Shown here: positions 722-13,173 of the stretch, in pieces | Layout of the letters: each line of letters opens with the position of its first letter | Position numbering within the stretch: the stretch's first letter is position 1 | Assembly: GCA_913009315.1 (NCBI GenBank) | Contig: CAJVZA010000057.1 | Location: 1 to 13,173 of the forward strand | Reading direction: 5' to 3' | Length of the DNA stretch: 13,173 nt | DNA from: an uncultured Hippea sp. | GTDB taxonomy: Bacteria > Campylobacterota_A > Desulfurellia > JAADFJ01 | Position numbers and translations under genes: made by a program | The notes under the pieces: model-generated | What the model was told of the DNA's origin: nothing | The model's input: the letters and a program-made list of their open reading frames with translations, nothing else | Database searches by the model: none

Positions 722-832
722 TCAGCCTTTAATACCTGCAGTTGCAGCTATGAGCCACCACAAAAACCCTGCAAACGCGAGCATCGTAACGACAAGCGAT
801 GCCGCATCTCTATGACGCGATAGCCAGTTCAT
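722..832 (-). CDS. 36-aa single-helix membrane microprotein, third gene of cytochrome operon
   Basis: The ATG at 832-830 overlaps the TGA of the upstream gene (831-829) as ATGA, the classic translational-coupling arrangement. The reading runs 36 codons to a TGA at 724-722. The product starts MNWLSRHRDAASLVVTMLAF: a short basic amphipathic head, then one hydrophobic helix of about 22 residues (about 12-33) with two adjacent Trp near its end, and a short Lys-ending tail. Basic residues before the helix suggest an N-in orientation (positive-inside rule). Small single-helix subunits are known in cytochrome b6f (PetG, PetL, PetM, PetN) and cytochrome bd (CydX). By position this is most likely an accessory subunit of the cytochrome complex encoded upstream, but I see no sequence match to those families. 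The ATGA overlap and hydrophobic content make it a credible gene despite its size. Confidence 0.65.
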   Translation of the reverse strand: MNWLSRHRDAASLVVTMLAFAGFLWWLIAATAGIKG

Positions 833-1797
833 AAGTTTTTCTTCTTTTTATGTTCTTTGCGAATGTTATCATCATAATGATCTCCCTTCATTGAAAATTC
901 GGAACGTTTGGATTTTTTCGGATCAACAGCGTAGATAAGTTTGTAAAGGCCAATATATTTTGGAATATTTCTTAGACCTGGAATGAGCGGAAAGAGTACT
1001 AAAGCAAAAATTGCAAAAAGGCTGTTCCAAAAGATGAATCCCGGTCCGGTTGAACCGGCCGGAAGTAACACATGAGCAACAGCCGGGATGATCAGGTACC
1101 ATGGTCCCGGAGCAAACCCGCGCTCCTTAATCATTCCCCACTGATCATCCGTGAGGCCGTTCCTAATCGCAGTGTTTAGCATGTACGGTCGGTCATATAG
1201 CCAAATATTGGTGTACTCGAAGGTATTTCCGGGGCTGATCCCTTGAAAGTATGTTTCCAGGTAACCATTTTGCGCCAATTTGAGAATGGTATCGGCAATT
1301 ACCGGAACCGGTCCAAAGTTGCCCCTGAGCATGGAAATATTCGACATCTTCGGGACCGGAGTATAATCCGACTTGCTCACAGGGAAAGTCTTTTGTATCG
1401 CCTTGTCATAGTTTTTTGCCCATTCTATCCGTTTAGTCATTGGTGCATTAATATAGGTGCTCAGTGCTTGCCGCTGCTTTTGAGATAAAAACCACTTTGC
1501 GCTCTCAAGCGGGCCTATAACTAAGCGCTGTGCAGGATTCTTCATGCCGTATGCATAAGGATCGGTATACGATACAGATGCCCCATCTAATTCTTGGGAT
1601 ACCGCCCAGATAGTTCCTCCGGGTTCCATTTGTGCGGAGTTTTTGATGGTGGCCCTGGGCCAATTGGGGGAGCCCACCCAAATTCCCATTACAATGACCG
1701 TAATTAGTAAGACAATCATTAAAATAGGGTATTTCCAAAATCCATGCCTGACAATACTAAACTTAGTCGATTCGGACTTGTCTTTTATCTTTGACAT
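829..1797 (-). CDS. Membrane partner of b6-type cytochrome b (subunit IV-like role), 322 aa
   Basis: This is the second gene of the cytochrome operon. The start is the ATG at 1797, because AGGAGG lies 8 bases upstream (overlapping the stop of the preceding gene); a longer in-frame reading from 1827 lacks this. One helix at about residues 21-41 is followed by a large soluble region (about 42-230), two closely spaced helices (about 232-246 and 254-273) and a Lys-rich tail, probably cytoplasmic. That topology puts the soluble domain on the outside. The pair of late helices, with GPWYLIIP at their start, loosely recalls the PEWYFFP segment of b6f subunit IV / cytochrome b C-terminal half, but the true PEWY motif is absent. 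The GLRNIPKYIGLYKLIY segment after the last helix resembles tails of cytochrome-b-associated proteins that I remember only vaguely. There is no haem-binding CXXCH and no Fe-S motif. It probably forms the quinol-side or outer part of the complex with the cytochrome b below; the exact family is unresolved. Confidence 0.7.
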   Translation of the reverse strand: MSKIKDKSESTKFSIVRHGFWKYPILMIVLLITVIVMGIWVGSPNWPRATIKNSAQMEPGGTIWAVSQELDGASVSYTDPYAYGMKNPAQRLVIGPLESAKWFLSQKQRQALSTYINAPMTKRIEWAKNYDKAIQKTFPVSKSDYTPVPKMSNISMLRGNFGPVPVIADTILKLAQNGYLETYFQGISPGNTFEYTNIWLYDRPYMLNTAIRNGLTDDQWGMIKERGFAPGPWYLIIPAVAHVLLPAGSTGPGFIFWNSLFAIFALVLFPLIPGLRNIPKYIGLYKLIYAVDPKKSKRSEFSMKGDHYDDNIRKEHKKKKNL

Positions 1798-1810
1798 TTG
1801 TTTTAACCTC

Positions 1811-2464
1811 CTATAAAGGACGAGCAATTCCCTGTAACTTTACCAGAGTAACATGGACGCCGATCAAAACCAGTAAAGTAAAAGGAATAAAAGCTACGTG
1901 GATAAGTATAACCTGGGTAAAGTTCGACGGAGTAATAAGCCTCAGTAAGGGCAGACCAAACAACATATAGTTGGAATGCATGGCGACAAACTGAGATTCC
2001 CAGTCTCCTCTGGCCAAAACACCAAATAAATTCTCACCTAAGGCAAGAAATAGAGAAGTAAGCCCTATCGCATAATTCACCCATCTTTCCCCTCTGTACG
2101 CTCCTGTCAACCATACACGGACAACGTGGATAAAAAGAAAGAAGAAGAAAGCTTGAGCCGACCAGTAGTGCATTGACTTCACTGCGACTCCGGTAGGTGT
2201 ATGGAGCCACCATGGGGGCCCGAAAAGCGTGAGTATTATCCCGGTAATAACGAGAAAGAGAAATGAGAGAAAGGTGAGACCGCCCAGACAATACCAGTAA
2301 GACTCGGCATAGGAGGGTTCGACCTTCCCAAACATTCGGTTGAACGGAGGCAGGTAAGCAAAACTTTCGAGTGCGGCCTTCAGCCATCCAACCTCTTTTT
2401 TTCGTTCTTTAAACCGAAACGGTTCGCCTTTGTGATGAGCAAAATAGTCGTCTTGATCAGTCAT
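1811..2464 (-). CDS. Cytochrome b6-type (N-terminal cytochrome b) subunit, 217 aa
   Basis: A four-helix haem b protein of quinol:acceptor oxidoreductases of the bc1/b6f class, sited in the cytoplasmic membrane. Helices lie at about 60-82, 101-120, 130-150 and 183-206. The two haem pairs are visible with the family spacing: H99 and H113 (HYWSAQ...IHVVRVWLTGAYR) and H189 and H204. The length matches b6 rather than full-length cytochrome b, so the C-terminal half is encoded separately. YCLGG places Cys59 where b6 and the Bacillus enzyme carry the Cys that binds the extra haem c-n/c-i. The usual LPWDQ stretch after helix 3 is replaced by VLARGDWESQ, so the quinol site is divergent. AGGGGAT 8 bases before the ATG is the ribosome binding site. 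It is first in the operon, with a promoter and hairpin upstream. No Rieske or cytochrome c gene is adjacent. Confidence 0.9.
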   Translation of the reverse strand: MTDQDDYFAHHKGEPFRFKERKKEVGWLKAALESFAYLPPFNRMFGKVEPSYAESYWYCLGGLTFLSFLFLVITGIILTLFGPPWWLHTPTGVAVKSMHYWSAQAFFFFLFIHVVRVWLTGAYRGERWVNYAIGLTSLFLALGENLFGVLARGDWESQFVAMHSNYMLFGLPLLRLITPSNFTQVILIHVAFIPFTLLVLIGVHVTLVKLQGIARPL

Positions 2465-4737: not shown

Positions 4738-4750
4738 CCATATGTGTTGT

Positions 4751-4823
4751 GGGTCGTTAGCTCAGGCGGTAGAGCAGTAGCCTTTTAAGCTATTGGCCGC
4801 AGGTTCGAGTCCTGCACGACCCA
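4751..4823 (+). tRNA. tRNA-Lys(TTT)
   Basis: A full cloverleaf can be drawn. Acceptor GGGTCGT pairs with ACGACCC, the D-arm is GCTC/GAGC, the anticodon stem GTAGC/GCTAT closes the loop CTTTTAA with anticodon TTT (4784-4786), and the T-arm is GCAGG-TTCGAGT-CCTGC. CCA is not encoded; the discriminator A is followed by more A's. First RNA of the block. Confidence 0.95.
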
Positions 4824-4829
4824 AAAAAA

Positions 4830-4906
4830 GTCCCCATCGTCTAGTCGGCCAAGGACACCGCCCTTTCACGGCGGTAACGTGGGTTCAAATCCCGCTGGGG
4901 ACGCCA
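4830..4906 (+). tRNA. tRNA-Glu(TTC)
   Basis: Acceptor GTCCCCA pairs with TGGGGAC. The anticodon stem CCGCC/GGCGG closes the loop CTTTCAC with anticodon TTC. The T-loop is TTCAAAT. The 3' CCA is encoded. Only six bases separate it from tRNA-Lys, so the two are co-transcribed. The ribosome binding site of the HU gene begins seven bases later. Confidence 0.95.
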
Positions 4907-4924
4907 TTTTTTAAGGAGGTTTAT

Positions 4925-5206
4925 ATGTTGGTAAAGAGTAGTCTTATTAGACAGGTTGCCGAAGAAACGGGAGCTTCAATAGAAATGACAAAAAAAGTTA
5001 TTGATGCTTCTCTCAACACCATTGTTGAAAATGTTTCGAAAGGCAAGAAAGTAAGCATTGCCGGATTTGGGAACTTCTATGCAACCAAGAGAGCTGCAAG
5101 AAAAGGAAGAAATCCGAGAACCGGAGAAGAGATTGATATCAGCGAAGCGAATGTTCCCCGCTTCAAAGCAGGTAAGGCTTTCAAAGAAAGCGTTCTTAAT
5201 AAATAG
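4925..5206 (+). CDS. HU-family DNA-binding protein
   Basis: HU/IHF proteins are small dimeric nucleoid proteins that bend DNA. The product is 93 aa, the usual size. The family signature is clear: GFGNFYATKRAARKGRNPRTGEEI spans about 47-70, forming the beta-ribbon arm that enters the minor groove, including Pro64 (RNP), which intercalates in family structures. The start is the ATG at 4925 with AAGGAGGT five bases upstream; an upstream in-frame extension reads through the tRNA genes and is not real. The gene lies between tRNA-Glu and tRNA-Val, so it is transcribed within the tRNA block and its mRNA is presumably released by tRNA processing. Sequence alone does not separate HU from IHF; single-gene context and motif favour HU. 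Confidence 0.95.
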   Translation: MLVKSSLIRQVAEETGASIEMTKKVIDASLNTIVENVSKGKKVSIAGFGNFYATKRAARKGRNPRTGEEIDISEANVPRFKAGKAFKESVLNK

Positions 5207-5212
5207 CAAACA

Positions 5213-5287
5213 GGGCGATTAGCTCAGCGGAAGAGCACCTGCCTTACAAGCAGGTGGTCGCAGGTTCGAACCCTGCATCGCCCACCA
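5213..5287 (+). tRNA. tRNA-Val(TAC)
   Basis: It starts six bases after the HU stop codon. Acceptor GGGCGAT pairs with ATCGCCC, the anticodon stem CCTGC/GCAGG closes the loop CTTACAA with anticodon TAC, and the T-arm is GCAGG-TTCGAAC-CCTGC. CCA is encoded. Confidence 0.95.
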
Positions 5288-5290
5288 TAC

Positions 5291-5367
5291 GGGGCTGTAG
5301 TTCAGTTGGTTAGAACGCTGGCCTGTCACGCCAGAGGTCGCGAGTTCAAGTCTCGTCGGCCCCGCCA
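5291..5367 (+). tRNA. tRNA-Asp(GTC)
   Basis: Acceptor GGGGCTG pairs with CGGCCCC with one G-T pair. The anticodon stem CTGGC/GCCAG closes the loop CTGTCAC with anticodon GTC. Discriminator G and encoded CCA. Three bases follow tRNA-Val. Confidence 0.95.
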
Positions 5368-5368
5368 T

Positions 5369-5406
5369 CATAGCCATTGCAGTATAATTATATTTATAAG
5401 GCTATG
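5369..5406. repeat. 7-bp inverted repeat with AT-rich loop between tRNA genes
   Basis: CATAGCC (5369-5375) and GGCTATG (5400-5406) are perfect complements around a 24-base AT-rich loop containing TATAAT (5383-5388). This 87-base gap between tRNA-Asp and tRNA-Pro is by far the longest in the tRNA block. It may hold a processing signal, a weak terminator or a second promoter; I found no convincing -35 element. Confidence 0.35.
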
Positions 5407-5454
5407 GTCATGTTGTTGCAAGAGATAAATATAGGTTGACGCTATTTTTAACAA

Positions 5455-5528
<74 letters not shown>

Positions 5529-5531
5529 AAT

Positions 5532-5608
5532 GCGCCAGTAGCTCAGCAGGATAGAGCAACGGACTTCTAATCCGTAGGCCAGAGGTTCGAATCCTCTCTG
5601 GCGCACCA
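5532..5608 (+). tRNA. tRNA-Arg(TCT)
   Basis: Acceptor GCGCCAG pairs with CTGGCGC. The anticodon stem ACGGA/TCCGT closes the loop CTTCTAA with anticodon TCT. The T-arm is AGAGG-TTCGAAT-CCTCT. CCA is encoded. Confidence 0.95.
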
Positions 5609-5613
5609 TATTT

Positions 5614-5689
5614 GGGCCGTTAGCTCAGTTGGTAGAGCAGCAGACTCTTAATCTGCGGGTCGTAGGTTCGATCCCTACACGGCTCACCA
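5614..5689 (+). tRNA. tRNA-Lys(CTT)
   Basis: Acceptor GGGCCGT pairs with ACGGCTC (one G-T pair). The anticodon stem GCAGA/TCTGC closes the loop CTCTTAA with anticodon CTT. CCA is encoded. With tRNA-Lys(TTT) at 4751 it gives two lysine isoacceptors in the same block. Confidence 0.95.
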
Positions 5690-5705
5690 AATTCTTTTTA
5701 ATCGT

Positions 5706-5782
5706 GGTGGGTATAGCTCAGTTGGCAGAGCATTGGATTGTGGCTCCAAGGGTCGCGGGTTCAAATCCCGCTATCCACCCCA
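5706..5782 (+). tRNA. tRNA-His(GTG)
   Basis: Acceptor GTGGGTA pairs with TATCCAC. An extra G at 5706 (G-1) faces discriminator C at 5779, the identity element of tRNA-His. The anticodon stem TTGGA/TCCAA closes the loop TTGTGGC with anticodon GTG. CCA is encoded (5780-5782). Last RNA of the block; no clear intrinsic terminator follows on this strand. Confidence 0.95.
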
Positions 5783-10365: not shown

Positions 10366-11638
10366 GCTCTTTTCCCTTCAGGGTGTGTTTTGATATTCCG
10401 CAAACCTCAACCGGAACAAATTTGCCTAAAACTGCGCTCCCGCTTTTTACGTTAATAACAATATCCTGACGAGTTCTTCCTGCGAATCCGCTCTCTTTCT
10501 GTTTATCTACAAAAATCGACATTATGCTTCCTTTATACCTCTCTAATTTCTTAACAGTTATATTTTGCTGGTACTCTATCAATCTCCCCAGTCTCTCTTT
10601 CGATACGACCATACTGACCTGTCCCTCCATGGCACCGGCTTGCGTGCCGCTTCTTTTTGAGTAGCAGAACATAAAACTGTTAAAAAATCCTACATCTCCG
10701 ACAATTTTGAGTGTCTGCTCGAAGTCCTGCTCTGTTTCTGTGGGAAAACCTACAATAATATCAGTTGTTAATATAGCATCTTTAATATATTTTTCAATTT
10801 TCTCAACCTTTTTCATATAACCGGAACTATTATAGCCGCGTTTCATCAGTTTCAAAATCCTGTCTGAGCCTGATTGAAGCGGAAGATGAATATGGGGCAC
10901 ACACTTGGGTATATATGAGATCTCTCTTATTTGTCTGTCGGTCATACTTGCCGGATTGGGAGACATAAATTTGATGCGCGATATTCCTGAAATTGCTGCA
11001 ACTTTCCTGAGAAGTGCGGCAAAATCAATATCTTCATAGCTGTAGGCATTAACATTCTGGCCAAGCAGAGTAATCTCGCGTGCTCCATTTTCAGCAGCTC
11101 TGCAAACCTCATCGTATATATCATCGGGCCTGCGCGAAATCTCCCTGCCTCTTGTATAAGGAACAATACAGTAGCTGCAGAATCTGCTGCATCCGTACAT
11201 AATATCAACTGATGCCGAAAGCTTTTTAATTTCCGGTCGACTATGGATATAAAATTCCGGATTATCGTCGGTCAATACAACACTTCCGCCGGTTATTATA
11301 TGGGGAATCTCATATAGATATTGAGGACCCACAACGGCATGCACAAACGGTGCCCTCTTGATCAAGCTGCGGCCGGCGATTTGCGATAAACAGCCGGCAA
11401 CAATGATTTTTTTGTCCGACTTTGAATATCTTCCAAGCTCGCTGTAGAATTTGCTGTCGGCATGATCTCTGACGGTACATGTATTGAAGATTATCGTTCC
11501 TGCATCGTCGGGTTTACCGGCAATCATGTAACCGGATTGAATAAGCAATTCCCTGAGTATATCGCTGTCATGAAAATTCATCTGGCAGCCGAAAGTTTTT
11601 ATATAAACTATTCCTTCTTTTTGTGAATCTTTATCCAT
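10358..11638 (-). CDS. miaB: tRNA-2-methylthio-N6-dimethylallyladenosine synthase
   Basis: MiaB is a radical SAM methylthiotransferase that adds a methylthio group to N6-isopentenyladenosine at position 37 of tRNAs reading U-starting codons. The 426 residues show the N-terminal UPF0004 domain with its three cluster cysteines C18 (FGCQMN), C54 (NTCTVRDHAD) and C83 (AGCLSQ). The radical SAM cluster follows, with C150, C154 and C157 in YGCSRFCSYC, then IVPYTRGREISR, which favours MiaB over RimO or MtaB. The C-terminal TRAM domain spans about 365-425. Length is typical, slightly short. The ATG at 11638 lies inside the end of the mltG-derived reading frame (31-base overlap). No tRNA with a UNN-reading anticodon occurs in this window's cluster. 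Confidence 0.95.
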   Translation of the reverse strand: MDKDSQKEGIVYIKTFGCQMNFHDSDILRELLIQSGYMIAGKPDDAGTIIFNTCTVRDHADSKFYSELGRYSKSDKKIIVAGCLSQIAGRSLIKRAPFVHAVVGPQYLYEIPHIITGGSVVLTDDNPEFYIHSRPEIKKLSASVDIMYGCSRFCSYCIVPYTRGREISRRPDDIYDEVCRAAENGAREITLLGQNVNAYSYEDIDFAALLRKVAAISGISRIKFMSPNPASMTDRQIREISYIPKCVPHIHLPLQSGSDRILKLMKRGYNSSGYMKKVEKIEKYIKDAILTTDIIVGFPTETEQDFEQTLKIVGDVGFFNSFMFCYSKRSGTQAGAMEGQVSMVVSKERLGRLIEYQQNITVKKLERYKGSIMSIFVDKQKESGFAGRTRQDIVINVKSGSAVLGKFVPVEVCGISKHTLKGKELA

Positions 11639-11874
11639 TCTTTTTCCTTTTCATAGTTTGTAAAAAAAAATGTTGATCCGTCAGAACTCAAGAAATACAA
11701 CAGATTTCCTTTTGGTGCATCGGAAGCATATTGTATAGCCTTTAAGGACGGGTTAGATATCGGCGTTGGAGGTAATCCCCTGTTTTTATATAAGTTGTAT
11801 GGTGTTGCTGTATTAAAATCCGCATGATTTAATCTATTTTTACCGAGGGCATATTGAAGCGCAGAATCCAATCC
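11608..11874 (-). pseudogene. mltG: C-terminal fragment of endolytic transglycosylase MltG
   Basis: The last 88 codons match the end of MltG (YceG-like), an inner-membrane lytic transglycosylase that terminates nascent peptidoglycan strands. LDSALQYALGKN corresponds to the LQTDPTVIYGxG segment, and TPYNLYKNRGLPPTPISNPS (25-44 of the fragment) is the highly conserved AYNTY..GLPPxPI.NPG motif, followed by the LLYFLSSDGSTFFF strand. The membrane anchor, LysM-like part and catalytic Glu region (ASIVEKE) are missing. Upstream codons are continuous in frame with an unrelated protein. Its normal position in front of miaB suggests the intact genome has a full mltG here and that the break near 11874 is either a real rearrangement or, more likely, a mis-assembly. 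Confidence 0.85.
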
Positions 11875-13062
11875 CAGCTCAACAACGTTGCGTTCAACTA
11901 GGGTTTCAAATTCTTTATATCGCCAGATATCTTTCCCCGCCGCATCTTTTATCTTTTGCCGAAATTCTGCAAAATGCACACTACGAGTCAATGGTTTTCT
12001 GGACATATCATTTAGTAATTTTACAGTACCAGAATTGGCAATCTTCCCAACTCCCCAAAATCCATCTAGTGTTTTTATTATTTGCTCTGTAGCTCTACCA
12101 GCATCTGAAGGAATGGCTATTATTTTGTTTTTATTTAGCCAAGCATTGAGAGCATCGGTGCCTGAACATAATTCCCATCTTTCAGAAATATTTTTATATT
12201 CTGGAAAAAAGACTAATTCCTCAGCTGTAGACAAAAGATGTTCTCGTCCTAAACGAAAGTCTGGGAATATAGGGTTTTTATAATCACAAGGGAAAATTGT
12301 AGCTATTTGATCTTTGCCTCCCCAACATCTCATCTTTACGACATTAGCAAAACGATGTTTGTTTCTATGTTTTCTAGTAAACTTTGGCCAAAGAGTGTCA
12401 AAAGTAATTACTGGTTTTTCAACATCTACGGGGATATCAATATGCTTCTCATCTGCACTTACAATTGGCATAGTAGTCCGAACCACAGACTCGGGACTGG
12501 GGTGCCAAAGTGGCGGATACCATTGCTGAATGCAATTAGCATCCTTTTTATCAACTCTAATATATTTCTTATGTATTTTATCACTTTCTTTGTCTGATAT
12601 CGATCTAGAGAACATCACTGTGGGATGAATCATAACACCATGTGGATTTCCTGGAAGTGGACGGAAATTTTTTATAATAAATTCTTTGCAAAATGGTGAT
12701 AATTCTTTAATCCATTGTATTGGAATTGGCAATATATTTCTACGAACAATTCGCAAGTTCCAAAAATCAATCAAATCCCTCGCCTTTTGACCATCCAACA
12801 CAAACAAAGCTGGACCACTATGGTCGTTATAGTTTACATCTAAATCAGTTAGGCCAATATTCAATGCTGACGCATGTCTATTTTTATATATTTTAGATAG
12901 TGTTTTACCATTTAAAAGGAATTTTTGGGGATCAAAAACGTACTTGTAGCTGTCTTTAAAATATTTCAATCTTTTTTGTTTAGGGAATTCACCAAAGACA
13001 CAAGCCATAAAAGCATTAAAAGATTCATCCTCCGCTCTAACATCCATGATCGTTGGTTTATG
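11875..13062 (-). CDS. Unrecognised protein, internal segment only (396 codons, both ends missing)
   Basis: An open frame of 396 codons enters from the adapter at 13062 and continues in frame into the mltG tail at about 11874. I cannot name the family. Visible features: no membrane helices, no signal peptide, and many aromatic and basic residues. Noticeable motifs are LFVLDGQKARDLIDFWNLR, ILPIPIQWIKEL, PHGVMIHPTVMFSR, RCWGGKDQIATIFP, IPSDAGRATEQIIKTLDGFWG and KEFETLVERNVVELGL. It reads like a soluble, possibly nucleic-acid-related accessory-genome protein, but no catalytic signature is evident. From memory, related proteins continue after ELGLE into a Cys-X-X-Cys region, which would put the break exactly at GL/DSAL; this is unverified. 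It is AT-richer and its codon use looks different from miaB and guaA, fitting a foreign origin or a join to another genome. Confidence 0.6.
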
Positions 13063-13138
13063 AGATCGGAAGAGCACACGTCTGAACTCCAGTCACACTG
13101 ATATATCTCGTATGCCGTCTTCTGCTTGAAAAAAAAAA
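13063..13138 (+). other. Illumina TruSeq index adapter and poly-A (artefact)
   Basis: The stretch begins AGATCGGAAGAGC and contains CCAGTCAC, the index ACTGATAT and ATCTCGTATGCCG, ending CTGCTTG at 13128. Ten A's follow (13129-13138). This is library adapter read-through and the exact reverse complement of 70-145. An apparent start codon at 13077 and a small open frame at 12966-13169 on the minus strand are translations of the adapter. Confidence 0.98.
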
Positions 13139-13173
13139 CCCCATTTACCACTAGATCGGAAGAGCACACTTCT
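13139..13173 (+). other. Short chimeric scrap and second partial adapter
   Basis: Fourteen bases (13139-13152) separate the poly-A from a second adapter start, AGATCGGAAGAGCACAC, at 13153. This copy ends with one mismatch to the adapter (ACTTCT for ACGTCT). It is read-through debris, with nothing biological to annotate. Confidence 0.92.

Follow-up and report, generated by a model that had tools for sequence, protein, structure and literature searches.

In complexes built around a Rieske protein and cytochrome b, the oxidation of quinol is taken to require the Rieske cluster. PetB operons without a Rieske gene have already been noted in Sulfobacillus (Justice et al. 2014, PMC4378227), where only the cytochrome b subunits are present, with two copies in S. 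thermotolerans (Panyushkina et al. 2019, PMC6803676), and two neighbouring cytochrome b/b6 genes of S. thermosulfidooxidans shift the same way as its sulfocyanin genes (PMC6315122). In the literature that we searched on Rieske-less complexes, the Sulfobacillus remark (PMC4378227) was the only relevant one; it consists of one sentence and names no partner subunit, no function and no phyla beyond Sulfobacillus. The same search returned no description of the second protein of the operon reported here (termed P2), of a haem-ci subclade or of a spread across phyla. Compared by description only, our operon and the Sulfobacillus petB operons, which belong to acidophilic Gram-positives, share a di-haem, petB-homologous cytochrome b and the lack of Rieske and cytochrome c. 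Cytochrome b6f and the Bacillus-type QcrBC resemble the operon in having a four-helix b6-type subunit with the 14-residue spacing in helix D and the haem-ci cysteine, a second subunit that is encoded downstream as a separate protein and carries an ef-like motif, and a small one-helix subunit, but our operon encodes no Rieske protein and neither cytochrome f nor cytochrome c, other motifs stand in for PWDQ and PEWY, and P2 has an insert of ~190 residues between its first helix and the ef motif and appears to be missing the last helix of subunit IV. Measured against canonical bc1/b6f complexes, the b6-P2 pair has the four haem-b histidines and lacks the Rieske protein, the c-type cytochrome and the Qo motifs. 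The anammox Rieske/cytochrome b complexes Kuste4569-4574 and Kustd1480-1485 likewise combine a b6-like cytochrome with a subunit-IV-like protein and unusual extra parts, but they keep the Rieske protein, carry multihaem cytochromes c and have a five-helix subunit IV (PMC12954380). ExtP, from the selenite/tellurite reduction operon of Geobacter (NF040969), is the best NCBIfam match of our b6 protein (E = 3e-19) and is also a b6-type subunit of a non-bc complex; however, the match reaches 69.5 bits against a cut-off of 290, so that an identity as ExtP was rejected, and c-type cytochromes, which abound in the ext cluster (PMC5877670), are absent next to b6-P2.

The window, i.e. the whole stretch of DNA analysed here, is the entire contig C57 (13,173 bp) of a metagenome-assembled genome (MAG) of 1.74 Mb that is 88% complete. 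Three overlapping or closely spaced genes span 2464-722 on its minus strand (Table 1), with coordinates and gene content as given in the initial annotation, and the upstream neighbours of the operon are accB/accC-like genes on the opposite strand, from which it faces away. We found no Rieske gene and no gene with a CxxCH motif in the operon, in agreement with its original description as one without Rieske or cytochrome c genes. A second genome of the genus, the closest to that of the window (G020), carries all three genes, at 91% (b6), 90% (P2) and 86% (microprotein) identity, in an unrelated gene context. Taken together with this second copy, dN/dS values of 0.13-0.23 between the window and G020 indicate that all three genes are real and that the operon is maintained under purifying selection. 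Since the same operon occurs in G020 at ~90% identity and in another context, a binning error or contamination, which a MAG might harbour, is unlikely.

Table 1. Genes of the b6-P2 operon in the window; dN/dS values are for the window against G020.
Feature	Coordinates	Strand	Evidence
b6-like di-haem cytochrome b, 217 aa	1811..2464	-	Pfam PF13631, NCBIfam and PDB matches; conservation; dN/dS 0.13
P2, probable remote subunit IV, 322 aa, start at 1797	829..1797	-	always paired with b6; dN/dS 0.15
Microprotein MNWLSRHRDAASLVVTMLAFAGFLWWLIAATAGIKG, 36 aa, single helix; start overlaps the P2 stop	722..832	-	conserved in relatives; dN/dS 0.23 (36 codons)

The b6 protein matches Cytochrom_B_N_2 in Pfam (E = 4.5e-9), cytochrome b6 (PRK03735, E = 3e-16) in addition to ExtP in NCBIfam, both below cut-off, and cytochrome b6 or QcrB in the PDB (E about 1e-10). 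Both haem pairs are retained, as had been proposed: the haem-b ligands are His99/His113, with 13 residues between them, and His189/His204, with the 14 residues of the b6 spacing, and the four histidines are conserved in 61/61 and 60/60 cases across the extended family. By the features that mark PetB, the protein has the helix D spacing of 14 and a cysteine (Cys59) in its YCLGG motif, at the haem-ci position. The haem c-i type cysteine of the initial annotation is therefore present in the window, but it is confined to the window subclade, where most members have it and several close relatives carry alanine instead, whereas Ser, Leu or Met takes its place in the broad family. Alteration of the quinol-site motifs PWDQ and PEWY was confirmed, with ARGDWESQ in place of PWDQ in b6 and GPWY in P2. 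The stretch LPWDQ..YWA, kept in the canonical b6 proteins of relatives, reads LARGDWESQFVAMHS in the window protein, and while canonical paralogues in the same genomes retain PWDQ/PDWY, the b6-P2 family has ARGDWESQ and GPWY or GAVW.

P2 contains no cysteine and hence holds neither an iron-sulphur cluster nor a c haem. A hydropathy scan revealed two clear transmembrane helices (residues 18-47 and 250-279), and the ~190 residues that follow the first helix form an extracytoplasmic, helical region. The outer domain attributed to P2 at the outset was thus found again, while the three helices attributed to it came down to two, with a third only if the GPWY stretch, which lies between them at the place where canonical proteins have PEWY, is counted as an ef helix. 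Across the extended family P2 conserves the pattern QWG...E/D...G(P/A)W, with W220, G231 and an acidic residue (Glu/Asp) at 225 each in 59/59 sequences. P2 has no match in Pfam or NCBIfam, and no Pfam family was recognised in any of 23 family members; this includes Cytochrom_B_C (0/23), which speaks against P2 being a standard cytochrome b C-terminal domain, a possibility raised earlier as one that would overturn the original reading. When profiles were compared, the C-terminal part of the broad family's P2 aligned with canonical subunit IV in the correct register (E = 1.6e-4, probability 50%; reversed control 0.42), and the window subclade alone gave no significant match to it. In a Ktedonobacterales genome, b6 and P2 are naturally fused into one protein of 547 aa (L052, 5025-6665). 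The position of P2, this fusion and the weak profile match suggest, but do not prove, that P2 is a distant form of subunit IV in which a long insert precedes the ef helix and helix G is missing. The distal residue at haem ci in subunit IV is Phe40 in b6f and Glu in some Gram-positives. At the site that we aligned with it by eye, P2 has a tyrosine (Tyr23) in 14/14 members of the window subclade and a glutamate in 45/45 members of the broad family, and glutamate is described as a haem-ci ligand in subunit IV (PMC12954380). Because cysteine and Tyr23 go together in one branch and Ser/Leu/Met and Glu in the other, the two seem to handle the haem-ci site differently. AlphaFold models of the single proteins, made from nine-sequence alignments, were poor (pLDDT 55.7 for P2 and 53.8 for b6), and a Foldseek search of the PDB with the P2 model, too poor to inform, gave no match under E = 1. 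P2 offers a specific and so far unannotated partner subunit for direct test.

The microprotein had also been called correctly, as a third component of the operon. Loci of G020, Alicyclobacillus and Bacillota retain the 36-aa protein at the corresponding position (e.g. MNWMTRHKDGLSLLVTMILFAGVLWGIMAAAASVKG), and similar one-helix reading frames occur in Chloroflexi loci. In the Bacillota copies, P2 and the 36-aa protein are separated by an additional gene, absent from the window, whose product of ~70 aa has two hydrophobic stretches. In size and topology, and by analogy only, the microprotein resembles PetG/L/N of b6f.

Proteins 45-62% identical to P2 are encoded in Alicyclobacillus tolerans, Alicyclobacillus sp. 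ALC3, Bacillota MAGs, a Ktedonobacterales MAG and a Chloroflexi MAG; in every case the gene follows a b6 gene whose product is 57-75% identical to that of the window. Of 59 Alicyclobacillales genomes, 27 carry the broader b6-P2 family, often in several copies per genome, and it is also present in Chloroflexota and in a complete genome of another lineage (G198). In the window's phylum it is limited to two of 25 genomes, both of the window genus, and a wide sample of 386 genomes yielded three with the family. Together, b6 and P2 make up one family, which is common to at least three phyla. We inspected about 50 b6-P2 loci from Alicyclobacillales, Chloroflexota, G198 and the window genus, mostly with ~5 kb of flank per side, and found no bc-type Rieske gene in any of these flanks; the search of related genomes for a linked or adjacent Rieske gene, proposed at the outset as the way to check the original reading, was accordingly negative. 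A single ORF with CxxCH was seen near these pairs, with one motif and ~5 kb away (L081), and the only neighbours that broad-family loci widely share are regulators and small membrane genes. In Alicyclobacillus sp. ALC3, a Rieske oxygenase-type gene lies just upstream of a broad-family pair on the same strand (L047, 7346-8323) and is probably unrelated. In a tree of b6 proteins, canonical sequences (support 100/99), the broad family (99/96) and a monophyletic window subclade (100/97) are separate, and within the latter the window genus is sister to the Bacillota copies. This placement and the patchy distribution suggest that the operon was probably acquired horizontally, by transfer among mostly acidophile-associated bacteria. 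Carriage on a plasmid was considered and rejected, as no close plasmid copy was found and only a distant actinobacterial QcrB matched. Since the whole family comes without Rieske or cytochrome c parts and is shared by at least three phyla, the identity of its electron partner becomes a testable question. A widespread b6 family that keeps its haems in genomes without a bc-type Rieske would reveal either that this scaffold has a second use or a haem relay resembling an ancestral one, and b6-P2 is a candidate to fill the bc1 function that is missing from Gram-positive biomining acidophiles.

As a hypothesis, our best candidate for this partner is a rusticyanin-like cupredoxin. Called by TIGR03095 at more than 80 bits, which is below the curated cut-off, such a protein was present in 15 of the 27 family-positive Alicyclobacillales genomes and in none of the 32 family-negative ones (Fisher p = 4e-7, a value inflated by genome relatedness), including 5/5 of those with the window subclade. 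It was also found in the window genome, G020 and G198, beside CopA and/or CsoR; with CopA in the window genome and G198, and in the former also with CsoR and ResB. The distance from cupredoxin to operon is 5 kb in G085, about 17 kb in G042 and 20 kb in Alicyclobacillus sp. ALC3. The Chloroflexi carriers G046 and G047 are without rusticyanin, and G021 has rusticyanin and no P2. In these three genomes (G085, G042 and Alicyclobacillus sp. ALC3), the stretches that hold operon and cupredoxin are metal-resistance islands with CsoR, CopA, multicopper oxidase, DUF302, CcdA and TlpA genes, and the association could reflect a shared habitat or hitch-hiking in such acid/metal islands. As these islands could yield the same pattern, we advance the cupredoxin step as a hypothesis. 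The copper cluster of the window genome (L194; C44, 211-13937) comprises TlpA, CopA with YHS/HMBD domains, a DsbA-like protein, ResB, a rusticyanin/sulfocyanin-like protein, CsoR and a beta-propeller, followed by a second Rieske gene that is cut by the contig end.

Our preferred reading, which is tentative and which we regard as quite possible, is that b6, P2 and the PetG/L/N-like microprotein form a compact complex, free of Rieske and cytochrome c and similar to b6/subunit IV, that would relay electrons between quinone and a partner on the outside, with the cupredoxin as its most speculative part. The two b haems, together with haem ci in the window subclade, would carry electrons across the membrane, with a quinone site on the cytoplasmic side at haem ci, and an extracytoplasmic redox partner would dock on the outer domain of P2 and a remodelled GDW/GPWY site, where the acidic residue at P2 225, located shortly ahead of the GPWY region, may take over from the glutamate of PEWY. 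Such a complex would perform no Rieske-type electron bifurcation and would act as a simple transmembrane relay. Most speculatively, the partner in the window subclade may be a rusticyanin/sulfocyanin-like cupredoxin of acidophile copper-resistance or iron/sulphur chains, with electron flow possible in either direction. The lack of heme-copper oxidases in G198 is an argument that the family does not depend on an O2 chain with such an enzyme at its end. That b6-P2 might be an energy-conserving enzyme of a new class, in which a b6-type complex without Rieske, spread by horizontal transfer, passes electrons directly between quinone and a cupredoxin on a new outer domain and serves as the acidophile counterpart of bc1 plus Rieske plus cytochrome c, we consider unlikely.

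The pair could alternatively be made up of ordinary b6/bc-type subunits that recruit their Rieske protein from another locus of the same genome. The window genome does contain an ordinary Rieske-cytochrome b-cytochrome c1 operon on C72 and a partial Rieske gene, truncated at the contig end, on C44, either of which might provide it. Trans-encoded Rieske proteins probably exist, because in Alicyclobacillales a canonical b6 and its subunit-IV-cytochrome-c partner are apparently served by a solitary TAT-type Rieske gene located elsewhere. Three such solitary genes were recorded (L148, L149, L150), with no cytochrome b within several kb. However, G198 (1.77 Mb, one contig, 99% complete) has b6-P2 and, in a genome-wide search, zero Rieske domain proteins and zero COX1, and in the complete chromosome of Alicyclobacillus sp. 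ALC3 (G045) the only cytochromes b are a window-subclade copy and two paralogues, with no canonical cytochrome b and no bc-type Rieske. The nine Rieske matches in the latter are oxygenases, small ferredoxins and metallohydrolase fusions without the extra cysteine pair of the bc type. The family hence does not need a bc-type Rieske, and recruitment is refuted for it in these two complete genomes. The solitary Rieske gene of Alicyclobacillales, present in 27/59 genomes, does not co-occur with the family either (10 genomes observed, 12.4 expected, p = 0.30), and the altered Qo-site motifs also count against a Rieske partner. We therefore judge recruitment improbable. With respect to the initial annotation, which had allowed for a partner other than Rieske or one encoded elsewhere, these data and the flanks of the b6-P2 loci favour the former, and the latter fails as a general rule; its Rieske-free reading stands, although it had missed the genome's own bc1-type operon, P2 as a probable remote subunit IV and the probable horizontal acquisition.

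The metal-resistance islands themselves point to another function, periplasmic thiol or metal detoxification, in which b6-P2 would hand quinol electrons on to thioredoxins of the TlpA/CcdA type, to a multicopper oxidase or to copper ions. Genes for DsbD/CcdA, TlpA/redoxin, LGT, DUF302, DUF2933, CsoR, CopA and multicopper oxidase flank the operon in Alicyclobacillus and related Bacillota; on a Ktedonobacterales contig, genes for a redoxin and for a membrane protein that resembles CcdA but has no match in Pfam come immediately upstream on the same strand, and the Chloroflexi copy has an LGT gene nearby. Yet none of these genes adjoins the operon in the window or G020, island genes may merely hitch-hike and the redox levels have no obvious match, which leaves this function possible but rather unlikely. 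The rusticyanin association would also fit an uphill branch of acidophilic Fe(II) oxidation, in which cupredoxin electrons would be driven through b6-P2 to quinone by the proton gradient, in place of the reversed bc1 of Acidithiobacillus. The Sulfobacillus iron oxidisers, likened to our case by description, are without bc1 but possess cytochrome b subunits (PMC6803676), and the two cytochrome b/b6 genes fall together with sulfocyanin in S. thermosulfidooxidans transcriptomes (PMC6315122). On the other hand, the family is present in G198 without a heme-copper oxidase, the COX1 match in the window genome is sub-threshold only and this genome has normal Rieske-bc1 machinery, so that we hold a role in Fe(II) oxidation to be a poor prospect. 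Loss of Rieske, cytochrome c and the canonical Qo motifs might finally be read as the decay of a bc complex to a pseudogene remnant with no part in electron transfer, but the purifying selection on all three genes refutes decay, and with haem ligands invariant across phyla and an operon conserved down to its microprotein we give this reading practically no credence.

Apart from the operon, several features of the window are of minor interest. Illumina adapter sequence was assembled into both contig ends (79-145 and about 13061-13173); ORFs 28-192 and 12966-13169 are artefacts of these ends, and the outermost bases may be chimeric. An ORF of 489 aa at 11608-13077 combines ~390 residues without assignment with a C-terminal YceG/MltG fragment and is possibly a chimera or a degenerate gene. 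Eight tRNA genes are clustered around an HU-like gene at 4750-5782.
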